DNA of 64,000 nt from Sanguibacter hominis ATCC BAA-789. Its GTDB lineage: Bacteria > Actinomycetota > Actinomycetes > Actinomycetales > Cellulomonadaceae. A model generated the notes under the pieces. It had not been told where the DNA came from. It made no database searches and saw nothing but the letters and a program-made list of their open reading frames with translations. Positions 12,789 through 47,378 of this stretch are shown here, one piece after another. The position numbers were made by a program, and so were the translations under genes. The DNA is taken from positions 1,178,001 through 1,242,000 of the forward strand of contig NZ_JAAXOW010000001.1 of NCBI RefSeq assembly GCF_012396185.1. Reading direction: 5' to 3'. The stretch's first letter is position 1. Every line of letters begins with the position of its first letter.

Positions 12789-12798
12789 CGAGTCACAA

Positions 12799-12897
12799 CC
12801 ATCCAGAGCGGTCGAGAGTCCTGGCTCGTCGACGCCGCAGCAACCCCCCACTACGGAAGCCTCCTGAGGGTGCGGGTGCTAAAGCCAGGTTCGATGG
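12799..12897 (+). ncRNA. S-adenosylmethionine riboswitch (SAM-I/SAM-IV clan)
   Basis: The segment is closed by a P1 stem CCATC/GATGG (12799-12803 with 12893-12897). It contains the conserved SAM-clan core elements AGAGCGG after P1, GCAGCAACCC in the middle, and GGTGCTAAAGCC before P1 closes. The last element is the joining strand characteristic of SAM-I and SAM-IV aptamers. It lies 20 bases before metF, a methionine-pathway gene, so high SAM should switch off metF and metE. The compact layout and the actinobacterial setting favour SAM-IV over SAM-I, but the subclass was not resolved by eye. Confidence 0.88.
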
Positions 12898-12916
12898 ACG
12901 TTCCCATGGAGGCTTC

Positions 12917-32974: not shown

Positions 32975-33185
32975 GTGCGAGGCCTCCGGAGCAGGCGTAG
33001 CGTCGCTCGCACGTAGGGAAAGGAGGTGGTCCACGAGATGAAGTACTCCAGGACTCTCGAGGTGGTCGCCGGCTGACTGCCGGCCCGACCGGACGGTCCG
33101 CCAATCCCAGGCGGCCACCGGGACCCGTGGGGGTGCGGACCAGTCCACCGCACCAGCGCAGAGCGCGCGACCCACGGGTCCTTTC
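32975..33185 (+). ncRNA. candidate structured leader/small RNA carrying a 12-codon ORF
   Basis: The segment holds successive stem-loops. GTGCGAG/CTCGCAC is at 32975-33012, before an AAAGGAGG ribosome-binding site and the short ORF. GCCGGC/GCCGGC overlaps the ORF stop, and CCGCC/GGCGG follows. A final outer stem GGACCCGTGGG/CCCACGGGTCC (33121-33131 with 33171-33181) encloses two inner hairpins (GGTGCGG/CCGCACC and GCGC/GCGC) and is followed by CTTTC. This looks like an attenuator or a self-contained small transcript. No known Rfam class was recognised. The next gene has its own -10 box, so the RNA may act independently. Confidence 0.5.
33038..33076 (+). CDS. 12-residue peptide ORF inside the structured RNA
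   Basis: ATG at 33038 is preceded by AAAGGAGGTGG, one of the best ribosome-binding sites in the window, and opens MKYSRTLEVVAG followed by TGA. The stop codon sits in the loop of a GCCGGC hairpin. The peptide has no run of a single amino acid that would identify a classical amino-acid attenuator. It may be a leader peptide whose translation controls folding of the downstream stems, or a small functional peptide. Confidence 0.45.
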   Translation: MKYSRTLEVVAG

Positions 33186-33271
33186 ACGTCTTCACACGGA
33201 CGTCGCCGCACTTTTGCCCGCGCGACGTCGGGGCACCGCTCGCAGGTCGGCTCCTTGTCAGAGGGCGCCGA

Positions 33272-41729: not shown

Positions 41730-43055
41730 TCAGAGGATGAACGACCCGAACAGGTAGCCGAGCGCCACCGCGATCGCGATGTTGATCAGGCCCGGGACCA
41801 GGAACGGGTGGTTGAAGACCGCCTTCCCGATCCGCGTCGATCCCGTGTCATCCATCTCGACGGCTGCGAGCAGCGTCGGGTACGTCGGGAGGATGAACAG
41901 TGCGGACACCGCCGGGAACGCTGCGACCATGCCGAGCGGCGAGACGCCGATCGCAAGCGCCGTCGGCATGAGCGCCTTCGACGTCGCTGCCTGCGAGTAG
42001 AGCAGCGCCGCAGCGAACAGCAGGACGACCGCGAGCAGCCAGGTGTTCTCCTTGAGGATGTCGGAGGACGCCGTCATGATCTCCTCCTCGTGCGCCTTGA
42101 CGAACGTCGTGCCGAGCCAGGCGACACCGAGCACGCAGATGGACGCGCTCATACCGGACTTGAACGTCGACGCCCCGAGGATCTCCGAGGTGTTGACCTT
42201 GCAGCAGACGACGATGATCGTCGCGATCGACAGCATGATCGAGATGATCGCAGCGTCACGGCCCATGACCGGCTCCTCGATGAGGCCGACCTTGTCCGAG
42301 ATGATCGTCGCGTACGTCATGACCACGACGAGGCCGAGGCAGAAGATCAGCACCGAGAGCTTCGCGCCCGGCTTGATGTCGCGCTCCTTGCGCCCCGTCG
42401 GTGCTGCGACGGTGCCCTCGGCGAGGCGCTTCTGATACTCGGGGAGCGTGTCGAGCTTCGTCGTGCCCCGCATCTTGTCGATCGCCATCATGATCGCGGC
42501 GGTCGCCATGCAGGCGAGGAACGTCGACGGGATCGCGACGGCGAGCAGGCCGATGTAGTCGACGCCGGTGCTGCCCTCCTCGAGCATCCCGGAGAAGAAG
42601 ACCACGGCCGCGGAGATCGGTGAGGCCGTGATGGCGATCTGCGACGCGACGACCGCGATGGACAGCGGGCGCGCGGGGCGGATGTTGTTCTCCTTGGCGA
42701 CCTCGGTGATGACCGGCATCGTGGAGAACGCGGTGTGGCCGGTGCCCGCCATGATCGTCATCAGGTAGGTGATGACCGGGGCGAGGAAGTTGAGGTGCTT
42801 CGGGTTCTTCCGCAACGCCCGGTCCGCGAGGTCGACGAGGTAGTCCATACCTCCGGCGACCTGCATCGCGGCGATCGCCGCGATCACGGACATGATGATC
42901 GAGACGACGTCGAGAGGCATGGCTCCCGGCGTCACACCGAGCATGGCGAGGACAAGAACGCCGAGACCACCGGCGAAACCGATCGCGATGCCGCCGAGGC
43001 GAGCACCGAGGAAGATGGCCGCGAGGACGACCAGGAACTGCACTGCGATCATCAT
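41730..43055 (-). CDS. dcuB: anaerobic C4-dicarboxylate transporter, DcuA/DcuB family
   Basis: The 441-residue protein is the length of DcuA/B and has their hallmarks: [55 protein letters not shown] and [15 protein letters not shown]. These carriers exchange fumarate, malate or aspartate for succinate. The ATG overlaps the aspA stop by 4 bp. Together with AspA it brings in aspartate, makes fumarate and expels succinate. Choice between DcuA and DcuB is by context only. Confidence 0.92.
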
Positions 43056-44509
43056 CGTGCGTCAACCTGCCTTGTCACGTCGTCGTCAGACTTGTAGAGG
43101 TGGCCGCTGTAGTGCGGCCTCATGAGGTTGGCCGGCGAGAGGATCTCGTCGAGCGTCTCCTCGTCGAGGAGCCCCATCTCGAGGACCACCTCTCGCACGG
43201 ACCGTCCGGAGCGGGCGCACTCCTTGCCGACCAGGTCACCGTTGTGGTGACCGATGATCGGGTTGAGGTAGGTCACGATCCCGATGGAGTTCATGACGTA
43301 GCGCAGGCACACGTCGGCGTTGACGGTGATGCCGTCGATGCACTTCTCACGCAGCGCCCGGGCGGCGTTGCGGAGCAGGCTCACGGACTCGAACACGCAC
43401 TGCGCGATGACGGGCTCCATGACGTTGAGCTGGAGCTGCCCGCCGTCGGCGGCCATGGTGAGGGTCACGTCGTTGCCCATGACCTTGAAGCAGACCTGGT
43501 TCACGACCTCCGGCAGCACCGGGTTGACCTTGGCGGGCATGATCGACGATCCGGCCTGCAGCTCGGGGAGGTTGATCTCGTTGAGGCCGGCGCGAGGACC
43601 GGACGACAGCAGGCGCAGGTCGTTGCAGATCATCCCGAGCTTGACGGCGACGCGCTTGAGCCCGGCGTGGACCGCGACGTAGGCGCCGGTGTCGGAGGTC
43701 GCCTCGATGAGGTTCTCCGCTGTGACGAACGGCAGCCCGGTCACCTCGGCGAGGCGCGCGGACGCCTTCTCGGGGTAGCCGAGCGGCGTGTTGATGCCCG
43801 TCCCGATCGCGGTCGCGCCGAGGTTCACCTCGAGCAGCAGCTCGATCTGCCGAGCCAGGTAGCGCATCTCCTCGCGCATGAGGAGGCCGAAGGCGCCGAA
43901 CTCCTGACCGACCGTCATGGGGACGGCGTCCTGCAGCTGGGTGCGGCCCATCTTGAGGACGTCAGCGAACTCGACGCTCTTCTTCTCGAACGCCTCGGCC
44001 AGCAGCCCGAGCTCGTCGCGCAGCCCCTCCACGACGGTGTGGACGGCGAGGCGGAACCCGGTCGGGTACGCGTCGTTCGTGGACTGGCACTGGTTGACGT
44101 GGTCGTTCGGGTTGATGACGTCGTAGCTGCCCTTGGGCAGGCCGCGCAGCTCGAGCGCGAGGTTGGCGACGACCTCGTTGGTGTTCATGTTGACGCTCGT
44201 GCCAGCGCCACCCTGGAAGACGTCCACGGGGAACTGGTCCATGCAGCGACCTTCCTCGAGGATCAGGTCGCACGCCTCGACGATCGAGTCGGCGACGTCC
44301 GCGGGGAGGGTGAACATGTCCTTGTTCGCGAGCGCGGAGGCCTTCTTGACCATGACCATCGCCCGCACGAACTCGGGAACGTCGCTGATCTTCGCGGAGC
44401 TAATGGGGAAGTTCTCGATGGCACGCTGGGTATGGACGCCGTAGTAGGCGTCGGCAGGCACGTCCTTCGGGCCGAGCAGGTCGACCTCTGTGCGGAATTG
44501 CTGGGTCAT
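43052..44509 (-). CDS. aspA: aspartate ammonia-lyase
   Basis: The 485-residue protein belongs to the fumarase/aspartase superfamily, with signature [12 protein letters not shown] around residue 320. [19 protein letters not shown] at the start, [17 protein letters not shown] and STNDAYPTG are typical of AspA. It splits L-aspartate into fumarate and ammonia. GGAGAAGAGAG directly precedes the ATG at 44509. Three tandem stem-loops (44533-44597) lie just upstream, and dcuB is overlapped at the 3' end. Confidence 0.95.
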
Positions 44510-44532
44510 CTCTCTTCTCCGTCCGTCTGGCA

Positions 44533-44597
44533 TGAGCGTCGTTGCTCACGCTAGGCGTGACCGGCGTCGTTGCCGGTCCGGCGGCGTCATTGCCGCC
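44533..44597 (-). promoter_or_regulatory. three tandem stem-loops with a conserved 6-nt centre upstream of aspA
   Basis: On the plus strand: TGAGC-GTCGTT-GCTCA (44533-44548), GACCGGC-GTCGTT-GCCGGTC (44559-44578) and GGCGGC-GTCATT-GCCGCC (44580-44597). The arms differ but each is perfectly self-complementary, while the centre is nearly constant. In aspA-sense RNA the loops read AACGAC, AACGAC and AATGAC. The last stem ends about 12 bases before the aspA ribosome-binding site. This is either a leader-RNA regulator or a set of protein-binding dyads. No known class was matched. Confidence 0.6.
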
Positions 44598-44637
44598 CTA
44601 GGTGATTCTGTCGGGCGCGGACGGCGCCCTGCTGTGG

Positions 44638-44665
44638 CCCGGGCGGAGCACGTTCTCCGCCCGGG
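44638..44665 (-). terminator. stem-loop at the end of the sdh operon
   Basis: A perfect 11-bp stem CCCGGGCGGAG/CTCCGCCCGGG with a 6-nt loop lies 8 bp beyond the sdhB stop. Confidence 0.75.
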
Positions 44666-44673
44666 TCGGTCGT

Positions 44674-45423
44674 TCAGTCGTTCCTGCCGCGCAGCACCAC
44701 CCTCATCCGCTCGCGGTTGACGACGGCGATCGCCGCGAGCGGGATGCCTGCAGGGCAGACGTCGGCGCACTCGCCGTAGGAGGAGCACGGGCCGAAGTCT
44801 TGCTCCATCTCGTCGACCATGGCACGGGCGCGCCGTCCGCGCTCCTTCTTCCCGCCCGGGAGGGCGGCGAGGTGCGCGAGCTTGGAGCCGACAAAGAGGT
44901 GCGCGGCGCCGTTGGGGCACGCGGCGACGCAGGCGCCGCAGCCGATGCAGGCCGCGAAGTCGAGGGCCATCTCGGCGAGCGCGTGGTCGACCGGGGTCGT
45001 GTCGGCGTCAGGCGCGGTGCCTGCCTGGACGGCGATGTGGCCGCCGGCCTTGACGACGCGGTCGAGCGCGGAGCGGTCGACGACGAGGTCGCGGACGACC
45101 GGGTACACGCGCGAGCGCAGCGGCTCGATGCGGACGGTCTGCCCGTCGGTCCACGAGCTGAGGCGCTGGTGGCACGACGGCGTGTTGGGCTGCGGGCCGT
45201 GGGGCCGTTCGTCGACGGTGACGCCGCACGCGCCGCAGATGCCCTCGCGGCAGTCGGACTCGAACGCGAAGGGTTCGCGTCCCTCTTCGACAAGGCGTTC
45301 GTTGAGGCGGTCGAGAAGCTCGACGACGGACATCTCGGGGGTGGCGTCGTCAACCTCGTGGGTCTCGAAGCGGCCTTGGTCTGCGGGGTTGGCCTGTCGC
45401 CAGACCTCGAGCACGAGTCTCAC
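44674..45423 (-). CDS. sdhB: succinate dehydrogenase/fumarate reductase iron-sulfur subunit
   Basis: The 249-residue protein carries the [2Fe-2S] ligands CREGICGACG with the fourth Cys in SCHQRL, and the [4Fe-4S]/[3Fe-4S] cysteines CIGCGACVAACP and CSSYGECADVCPAGIP. It conducts electrons between the flavoprotein SdhA and the membrane subunit. GTG at 45423 follows GAGGAGGAA and overlaps the sdhA stop by 4 bp. It is the last gene of the operon. Confidence 0.95.
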   Translation of the reverse strand: MRLVLEVWRQANPADQGRFETHEVDDATPEMSVVELLDRLNERLVEEGREPFAFESDCREGICGACGVTVDERPHGPQPNTPSCHQRLSSWTDGQTVRIEPLRSRVYPVVRDLVVDRSALDRVVKAGGHIAVQAGTAPDADTTPVDHALAEMALDFAACIGCGACVAACPNGAAHLFVGSKLAHLAALPGGKKERGRRARAMVDEMEQDFGPCSSYGECADVCPAGIPLAAIAVVNRERMRVVLRGRND

Positions 45424-47378
45424 TTGTAGTTCCTCCTCGTCAGCGGGACGGCGTCGAACGCCAGGGGCTCGGCGTGCCGGACGTGCCGACCGTCGCCGGG
45501 GACGCCCCACGCGGAGACGAACGCCCAGCGGTCGTCGTCGCGCACGGCCTCGCCGTCCTGCTGGTGCTCGGCGCGGAAGTGTGCGCCGCAGGACTCCTCG
45601 CGGTCGAGGGCGTCGACGCACATGAGCTCCGCCAGCTCGAGGTAGTCCGCGACGCGGCCCGCCTTCTCGAGCTCCTGGTTGAGCCGGTCCTCGTCGCCGA
45701 GGACCCGCAGCTCGGTCCAGAACCGTGTCCGCAGCGCACGGATCTTGTCGATCGCGGTCGTGAGGGTCTCGCGGGTCCGCTCGACGCCGCAGCCTTCGTA
45801 GAGGATGTCGCCGAGGAGCCGGTGGAAGTACGTCGGGCCGTGCTCGCCCTGGACGGACATGAGGCGGTCGACGCGGTCGCGGGTGCGGTCGAGGGCCTCG
45901 GTGACGGCGGGCGCGTCGTCGGGGAGGCGCTGGCTGCCGAGCAGGGGCGCGAGGTAGTTCGGCACGGAGTACGGCAGGGTGAACCAGCCGTCGACGCAGG
46001 CCGAGAGCAGCGAGTTCGCGCCGAGGCGGTTGGCGCCGTGGTAGCCCCATCCAGCCTCGCCGCCGACGAACAGGCCGGGCAGGGAGGTCATCTGGTCGTA
46101 GTCGGACCAGAGGCCGCCCATCGTGAAGTGGGCGCCGGGGGCGATGCGCATGGGCTCGGTGTACGGGTCCTCGCCGGTGGCGTGGGTGTACATCTCGAAG
46201 AGGTTGCCGTAGCGCTCGGCGATCTTCTTCTTCCCGATGCGCTTGATGGCGTCGCGGAAGTCGAGGTAGACGGAGTTCTTCAGCGGGCCGACGCCGCGGC
46301 CTGCGCGGATCTGCTCGTGCGCGTTGCGCGAGGCGACGTCGCGGGGGGTGAGGTTGCCGAACGCGGGGTACTTGCGCTCGAGGTAGTAGTCGCGCTCGTC
46401 CTCAGGGATGTCGCCGGGTGCGCGCTTGTCGTCCGGGTCGACGGGGACCCAGATGCGACCGTCGTTGCGCAGCGACTCGCTCATGAGGATGGTCTTGGAC
46501 TGCCACTTGCTCGACACGGGCAGCGCGGTCGGGTGGAACTGGATGAAGCTCGGGCTCGCGAGGAGCGCGCCGCGCTGGACTGCTCGCCAGGCGGCTGAGG
46601 CGTTGGAGTTCTTCGCGAGGGTGGAGAAGTAGAAGACGTTGCCGTAGCCGCCGGTCGCGAGGATGACGGCGTGGGCGGTGTGCGCGCTGATCTCACCGGT
46701 GAGCAGGTTGCGCATGATGACACCCTGCACGCGACCGTCCTCGATGATGAGGTCGAGCATCTCGTGGCGGGTGCGCAGCGTGACGGTGCCGGCGTCGACC
46801 TGGCGCAGGAGGGCCTGCGCGGAGGCGATCTGGAGCTGCTGACCTGTCTGCCCACGCGTGTAGTACGTGCGGGAGACCTGGACGCCGCCGAACGAACGGG
46901 TGGCGAGCTGGCCGCCGTACTCGCGGGCGAACGGCGCTCCGATCGCGTTCATGTGGTCGATGACGCGGACGGACTCCTCGCCGAGGCGGAAGGCGTCGGC
47001 CTCGCGTCCGCGGAAGTCGCCGCCCTTGACGGTGTCGATGACGAACCGGTCGACGGAGTCGTTGTCGACCTTGCGGGCCCGGGCCGCGTTGATGCCGCCC
47101 TGGGCGGCGACGGAGTGCGCGCGGCGCGGGGCGTCGTGGTACGTGAACGCATGGACGTCGTACCCGAGCTCGCCGAGGGCTGCCGCCGCGCCAGCGCCGG
47201 CGAGCCCGGTGCCGACGACGATGACGCGGAACTTGCGGCGGTTGTTCGGGTTGACGAGCTTGTAGGAGAGGCGGCGGCGCTCCCACGCGGTGCGCGGGTC
47301 GCCGTCGGGGACGCGGCCGTCGAGGATCGATCCGGGCTCGACGCCGGGGACGGAGCTGTCGGGGGCTTCGAACGTCAT
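45420..47378 (-). CDS. sdhA: succinate dehydrogenase/fumarate reductase flavoprotein subunit
   Basis: The 652-residue protein has the FAD motif VIVVGTGLAGAGAAAALGELG, the covalent-flavin histidine in RAHSVAAQGGINAA, the substrate-site FIQFHPTALP and HFTMGGLWSDYD, and GANRLGANSLLSACVDG. Length and SdhC type (single five-helix subunit) match the B. subtilis-like class, which can run as succinate dehydrogenase or fumarate reductase. The ATG at 47378 overlaps the sdhC stop (ATGA). The reading frame stays open upstream to 48038, but that part is sdhC antiframe. Confidence 0.96.
   Translation of the reverse strand: MTFEAPDSSVPGVEPGSILDGRVPDGDPRTAWERRRLSYKLVNPNNRRKFRVIVVGTGLAGAGAAAALGELGYDVHAFTYHDAPRRAHSVAAQGGINAARARKVDNDSVDRFVIDTVKGGDFRGREADAFRLGEESVRVIDHMNAIGAPFAREYGGQLATRSFGGVQVSRTYYTRGQTGQQLQIASAQALLRQVDAGTVTLRTRHEMLDLIIEDGRVQGVIMRNLLTGEISAHTAHAVILATGGYGNVFYFSTLAKNSNASAAWRAVQRGALLASPSFIQFHPTALPVSSKWQSKTILMSESLRNDGRIWVPVDPDDKRAPGDIPEDERDYYLERKYPAFGNLTPRDVASRNAHEQIRAGRGVGPLKNSVYLDFRDAIKRIGKKKIAERYGNLFEMYTHATGEDPYTEPMRIAPGAHFTMGGLWSDYDQMTSLPGLFVGGEAGWGYHGANRLGANSLLSACVDGWFTLPYSVPNYLAPLLGSQRLPDDAPAVTEALDRTRDRVDRLMSVQGEHGPTYFHRLLGDILYEGCGVERTRETLTTAIDKIRALRTRFWTELRVLGDEDRLNQELEKAGRVADYLELAELMCVDALDREESCGAHFRAEHQQDGEAVRDDDRWAFVSAWGVPGDGRHVRHAEPLAFDAVPLTRRNYK

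Follow-up and report, generated by a model that had tools for sequence, protein, structure and literature searches.

A probable ANTAR-target RNA with three tandem hexaloop hairpins between sdhB and aspA in Sanguibacter hominis

RNA targets of ANTAR-domain proteins are described as short tandem stems, each capped by a six-nucleotide loop whose first base is A and whose fourth is G (A1/G4 hexaloop; PMC3369931, PMC8164766). The published linker between the two hairpins measures 2-25 nt, few actinobacterial targets have an intrinsic terminator, so that a terminator is not a defining feature in this phylum, and few actinobacterial studies ask what the ANTAR proteins control (PMC8164766). In the eutP leader, a case of antitermination, dual A1/G4 hexaloops are read by EutV, a response regulator composed of a receiver and an ANTAR domain (PMC3369931, PMC8934654), for which a single hexaloop constitutes the minimal site (PMC8934654). 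A different arrangement is described for the PPE1-5' RNA, which has three hairpins near a start codon, binds PdtaR of M. tuberculosis in vitro and is proposed to titrate this regulator in trans (PMC8131098).

The locus considered here lies in a window of 64 kb, i.e., the whole stretch of DNA analysed (64,000 nt) from the genome of Sanguibacter hominis ATCC BAA-789 (G000), and its genes are encoded on the minus strand. aspA (43052..44509) codes for an aspartate ammonia-lyase of 485 aa that scores 759 bits with the equivalog model TIGR00839 (cut-off 681). Its stop codon is overlapped by the ATG of an anaerobic C4-dicarboxylate transporter gene of the DcuA/DcuB family (41730..43055; 455 bits with PF03605 and 592 bits with TIGR00770). 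Upstream, an ORF at 44674..46050 contains the iron-sulphur subunit sdhB/frdB as its C-terminal part, according to its translation read by eye, and is itself preceded by sdhA/frdA- and sdhC-type ORFs; the sdh gene names rest on such reading of translations rather than on a family search. The sdhB stop is located 164 nt upstream of aspA, and an sdhB end of the same kind is found in three congeners. The ribosome-binding region, GGAGAAGAGAG (44510..44520), precedes the aspA ATG at 44509. An in-frame ATG at 44533 was considered as an alternative start and rejected, as it is not kept in one of the congeners (G086).

Between sdhB and aspA, the aspA-sense RNA is predicted to form three consecutive hairpins with A1/G4 hexaloops: H1 (44580..44597; GGCGGC-AAUGAC-GCCGCC, 6 bp), H2 (44559..44578; GACCGGC-AACGAC-GCCGGUC, 7 bp) and H3 (44530..44551; GCGUGAGC-AACGAC-GCUCAUGC, 8 bp), all on the minus strand. 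The three dyads with a near-constant centre that a preliminary description placed upstream of aspA are thus present, the minus-strand loops being AATGAC, AACGAC and AACGAC. The third dyad, said to extend from 44533, actually comprises 8 bp from 44530, and the distance from the last stem to the ribosome-binding site, given as about 12 nt, counts as 9 nt between the third stem and the GGAG (44520-44517). With all 7 pairs of H2 included, the H1-H2 linker is a single nucleotide, and that between H2 and H3 measures 7 nt; the last base of H3 occupies position -21 relative to the aspA start codon. A 121-nt aspA-sense RNA folds with a predicted energy of -47.1 kcal/mol compared with -33.3 +/- 3.6 in shuffled sequences (z -3.87), and 0 of 200 shuffles fold as well. 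An alternative hairpin, TCACGC-CTA-GCGTGA (44546-44560, minus strand), is mutually exclusive with H3. By reading, it is retained in G086, where a U-A pair has apparently become C-G though an outer pair of H2 breaks, and it was not seen in the two other array-bearing congeners, G045 and G025; we do not propose a switch on this basis.

How unusual is such an array? The motif GCAAYGACGC occurs 26 times in the 2.98-Mb genome, compared with 8 matches for a reversed control pattern. Only three of the 26 lie in a continuous stem longer than 4 bp, namely H1, H2 and H3; the other 23, which lack such a stem, were set aside. When both strands of the window were scanned for stems of at least 5 bp closing an A1/G4 hexaloop, the array was the sole site where 45 nt contained two such hairpins or 90 nt contained three; in a Markov control of one strand, run 40 times, pairs numbered 0.2 and triples 0.025. 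Since other loop classes also pair up in the window (up to 3 pairs per class and strand, and one triple in one class), tandem hairpins as such are not rare. What is rare in the window is the loop class that the hairpins share, not their tandem arrangement.

Within the genus, six genomes were sampled, five of which have aspA. The array is found in four leaders, those of the window genome, G086, G045 and G025; the last, listed in the same genus as the window, has a leader identical to that of Flavimobilis rhizosphaerae. The A1/G4 signature is kept in 11 of the 12 hairpins, being lost from H1 of G086 (loops GACAGC, AAAGAC and AACGAA from H1 to H3) and present throughout in G045 (AATGGA, AACGAC, ACCGTC) and G025 (AACGAC, AGTGTC, ACCGAC). 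In the 11 retained loops positions 1 and 4 are constant, while positions 2, 3, 5 and 6 vary (8/2/1, 7/3/1, 8/2/1 and 9/2, respectively). H1 is kept in two of the three congeners (G045 and G025), with one G-C pair changed on both sides to A-U in G025. H2 is kept in all three, consisting in G045 of 4 bp, a mismatch and then more pairs, and so is H3, where G045 again has one mismatch; two stems of G045 thus need an internal mismatch. Two pairs of H3 have changed on both sides among the four species. Linkers measure 4-13 nt in the congeners (1-13 nt across the four leaders), and in all four the end of the third stem falls between -21 and -25 from the aspA start.

Over these four leaders and 21 pairs, 93.8% of 81 cells are paired and 4 of the 21 pairs show changes on both sides. 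The covariation score of the four leaders is 0.278 against 0.159 in shuffles, a value that 2 of 500 shuffles reach, and sliding the structure (six controls) gives at most 0.087. Further pair types are not unusually numerous (116 of 500 shuffles). The set comprises four sequences of one genus, and the scored structure was taken from one of them, so that covariation in the stems supports, but does not prove, an RNA structure. The idea that selection acts on RNA structure is supported at this level by paired changes in four congeneric leaders and by loops that drift everywhere except at positions 1 and 4. In G075, the fifth congener with aspA (78% identical), the array is absent though ANTAR proteins are present. 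G038, which belongs to another genus, likewise has an ANTAR protein and no array.

The window genome was found to encode one ANTAR protein (PF03861, 78.9 bits, cut-off 27.3), a polypeptide of 224 aa made of a receiver and an ANTAR domain (PF00072, PF03861). Among solved structures it is closest to 1S8N (Rv1626; E 2.9e-77), EutV (6WSH) following with E 1.3e-38. The same genome encodes a PdtaS-type kinase with a GAF domain (PF12282, 168 bits). Judged by its sequence, the ANTAR protein is a regulator of the PdtaR/Rv1626 type, PdtaR being the same protein as Rv1626. Compared by alignment at positions whose roles in RNA contact are taken from the EutV study (PMC8934654), it keeps Arg142, Lys143, Lys149, Glu160, Met172 and Arg175 of EutV, has conservative replacements at Lys147 (Arg) and Tyr164 (Phe) and differs at Arg168 (Gln), Asn173 (Asp) and Arg177 (Thr). 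At all these positions the Sanguibacter protein and 1S8N carry identical residues. One ANTAR protein was likewise found in each of G086, G045, G025 and G038, and two in each of G075 and G061, the latter a congeneric genome in which aspA was not found; the second, weaker ANTAR match of G061 (L160) and G075 (L161) lies in a much longer open frame.

With respect to actinobacterial ANTAR targets (PMC8164766), the array resembles the described RNAs in most traits. It consists of adjacent stem-loops of 6, 7 and 8 bp, where at least two of at least 3 bp are expected, and the tandem arrangement recurs in three congeners; all three loops in the window are A1/G4 hexaloops; the H2-H3 linker falls within the published range, that between H1 and H2 just below it; the third stem stands next to the aspA ribosome-binding site, a likeness of position only; and an ANTAR protein is present in the genome. 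No second hairpin overlapping an intrinsic terminator, as in firmicute and proteobacterial targets, was found in 44480-44760, which agrees with the actinobacterial examples. The differences are the number of hairpins, three instead of two, and the location between sdhB and aspA. The eutP leader shares the A1/G4 hexaloops and their reading by a receiver-ANTAR response regulator (PMC3369931, PMC8934654), whereas here a terminator was not found, there are three hairpins, and the protein is of the PdtaR type with Phe at the place of EutV Tyr164. With PPE1-5' RNA (PMC8131098) the locus has in common the PdtaS/PdtaR pair and three hairpins near a start codon, a likeness that rests on hairpin number and place and not on hairpin sequences; instead of a titrating RNA acting in trans, an intercistronic element acting in cis within a metabolic operon is proposed here. 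Taken together, the hairpin array is very likely an ANTAR-target RNA. Against this reading speak the small number of leaders with tandem hairpins, four from one genus, the loss of A1/G4 from H1 of G086, the mismatches in two stems of G045, the H1-H2 linker below the published range, and the leaders of G075 and G038, which have no array in genomes that encode ANTAR proteins. Of the possibilities raised by the preliminary description, that of a protein-bound leader thus finds a match in the A1/G4 signature and in a fitting ANTAR/PdtaR protein of the same genome, binding being a prediction.

The surroundings of the array bear on how it would be transcribed. The gap between sdhB and aspA is only 117 nt in G045 and 107 nt in G025, and the first hairpin begins 18 and 10 nt, respectively, past the sdhB stop, which leaves hardly any room for a separate promoter ahead of the hairpins. 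In the window, a simple consensus scan of 44480-44760, which would miss other promoter types, did not find a sigma-70-like promoter. On these two grounds the array probably belongs to an intercistronic region within an sdh-aspA-dcu transcript, which would run through it. An aspA transcription start downstream of 44533, which had been thought fatal to an RNA element, would accordingly weigh less, since read-through sdh mRNA would still carry the hairpins.

The same short distance would suit hairpins that serve the 3' end of the sdh message as a terminator, a stabiliser or an RNase site, without any ANTAR role. Directly 3' of sdhB, the window indeed contains an 11-bp hairpin (44638..44665, minus strand) with the A1/G4 hexaloop AACGUG, and this hairpin probably belongs to the 3' end of sdh; at the corresponding place in G086 a hexaloop of the A1/G4 type was not found. 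For the array itself such an origin is improbable, given that no terminator-like site with a T-tract was found in 44480-44760, that a stabiliser does not depend on a particular loop, whereas A1 and G4 never vary in retained loops that drift elsewhere, and that the array keeps its position ahead of the aspA ribosome-binding site. A metabolite riboswitch, or a leader bound by another type of RNA-binding protein, would also appear as a folded leader with recurring loops ahead of a metabolic gene. We regard this as very unlikely: the three hairpins are small and separate, with no junction and no conserved core beyond the loops, and the ANTAR rules fit better. The riboswitch-like leader evoked in the preliminary description finds no support: an Rfam search identified no family at threshold in 44490-44720, and the loops carry the signature of ANTAR targets. 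With a permissive threshold, Rfam gave two matches below the cut-offs, both on the plus strand (15.5 and 17.8 bits for cut-offs of 52 and 60), which are taken as chance. Elsewhere in the window, a SAM riboswitch (12796-12900, plus strand, 52.6 bits) and a match to the actinobacterial sRNA family Ms_IGR-5 (33011-33188, plus strand, 55.5 bits) were observed.

The dyads could alternatively act as DNA, serving as binding sites for a transcription factor ahead of an aspA promoter, the preliminary description having also envisaged DNA binding, and perfect dyads with a near-constant centre are what such a factor might be expected to recognise. There is, however, very little likelihood of this, considering that the centre drifts at 4 of its 6 positions, that the arms vary from dyad to dyad and from species to species while most of the pairing persists, and that the simple promoter scan of 44480-44760 came out negative. 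Attenuation by a leader peptide was rejected because the sequence, read by eye, does not place every Asn-Asp codon pair of the loops in the same frame. The explanation that we strongly favour overall is thus an ANTAR-target RNA that would be bound by PdtaR and would control aspA-dcu.

Searches with covariance models were used to look for further examples. The first model (R1) was built from the four leaders, which it recovers by construction (E 1.3e-17 or better). Across 121 genomes of the family its next best match has an E value of 6.5e-4, and nothing comparable was seen among the limited number of candidates scored per genome. The match at 6.5e-4, in G004, is one hairpin identical to H1, antisense to a permease-like ORF of 428 aa, and was judged to be chance. 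Some match at E <= 1 occurs in 103 of the 121 genomes, mostly as noise. At 15 other R1 loci (L167-L181), no adjacent pair of A1/G4 hexaloops on one strand was present within the stretch viewed, L169 having two on one strand, but far apart. A second model (R2), restricted to two hairpins and derived from the same four leaders, is biased to those stems, so that weaker ANTAR targets could escape it. In the six congeneric genomes its top ranks go to the aspA leaders of G000, G045 and G086, that of G025 being weak (E 0.105). Of 61 matches at E <= 1, 5 fall in aspA leaders; 10 of the 56 others were inspected and, all lying in long open frames, were judged to be chance, though such frames are common at this G+C content.

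Outside the four array-bearing species, 68 aspA leaders were surveyed, 66 after removal of repeats; enterobacterial loci, several presumed same-species repeats, aspA matches below G332/G264, and G342 are not part of the set, and the start codons come from a simple rule that is wrong in some cases. The best R2 match at 66 other aspA loci has an E value of 0.26, and a weak one (E 1.3) lies directly before aspA in L064. In 8 of the 66 leaders, a single hairpin with a stem of at least 5 bp and an A1/G4 hexaloop lies within 100 nt, where 1.67 are expected and 0 of 200 shuffles reach 8, but the G1/C4 class is equally frequent with 8 hairpins. The eight include relatives (L132/L137; L152/L153/L213), and the cases of L123 and L096 are probably chance. 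Single A1/G4 hexaloop hairpins with differing stems stand near the aspA ribosome-binding site in L132 (7 bp, loop AATGAC, -42 to -23 before aspA), L137, L152/L153, L129 and L064, the last of which contains two G-U pairs and is outside the count of eight. Since one hexaloop suffices as a minimal site for EutV (PMC8934654), such hairpins, e.g., that of L132, could be functional in other lineages. In-frame TAG or TGA stops are reported within the match of some aspA homologues of the order (L129, L152 and others).

For the ANTAR-target RNA of Sanguibacter, the following sequence of events can be envisaged. The PdtaS-type kinase would phosphorylate the PdtaR-type regulator, which would then dimerise and dock on the hexaloops by reading A1 and G4, and the docked protein would act on translation initiation of aspA and of the coupled dcu gene, most likely as a repressor hindering the ribosome. 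Translation initiation is the likeliest level because the third hairpin ends at -21 and no intrinsic terminator was found, and we give translational control of aspA somewhat better than even chances. Repression, favoured on account of mycobacterial precedents, is put forward tentatively, at a little less than even chances, and antitermination or effects on mRNA stability are possible. The GGAG is mostly paired in the predicted folds of three of the four species, and the folds of G086, G025 and, in part, G045 include a predicted long-range helix that covers the ribosome-binding region; as the pairing partners differ between species, we do not claim a common switch structure. A bolder version, which we consider rather unlikely, would see in the triple hexaloop a multivalent PdtaR platform at the junction of the sdh and aspA-dcu portions of a single message, which would uncouple oxidative succinate metabolism from aspartate/fumarate exchange on a PdtaS signal, possibly with a PdtaR-titrating sponge function, and would be the main or sole PdtaR target in these species.

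The kind of element is known; the aspA target, the intercistronic place and the triple array are new as far as the literature searched reaches. No link between ANTAR RNAs and aspA appears in the titles and opening lines of abstracts among the matches listed, a literature that leaves out most subscription papers. The terms aspartate, aspA, ammonia and fumarate are all absent from the main text of PMC8164766, whose supplementary target tables may list aspA. With one ANTAR protein found and one conserved candidate target ahead of a gene whose function is known, this genome offers a simple pair for asking how PdtaR acts and which signal it conveys. An array of three sites rather than two is also relevant to the model of sequential hexaloop binding (PMC8934654). 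If the proposal is true, PdtaR would be tied to aspartate/fumarate metabolism, and the cell could thereby tune its use of aspartate and fumarate.
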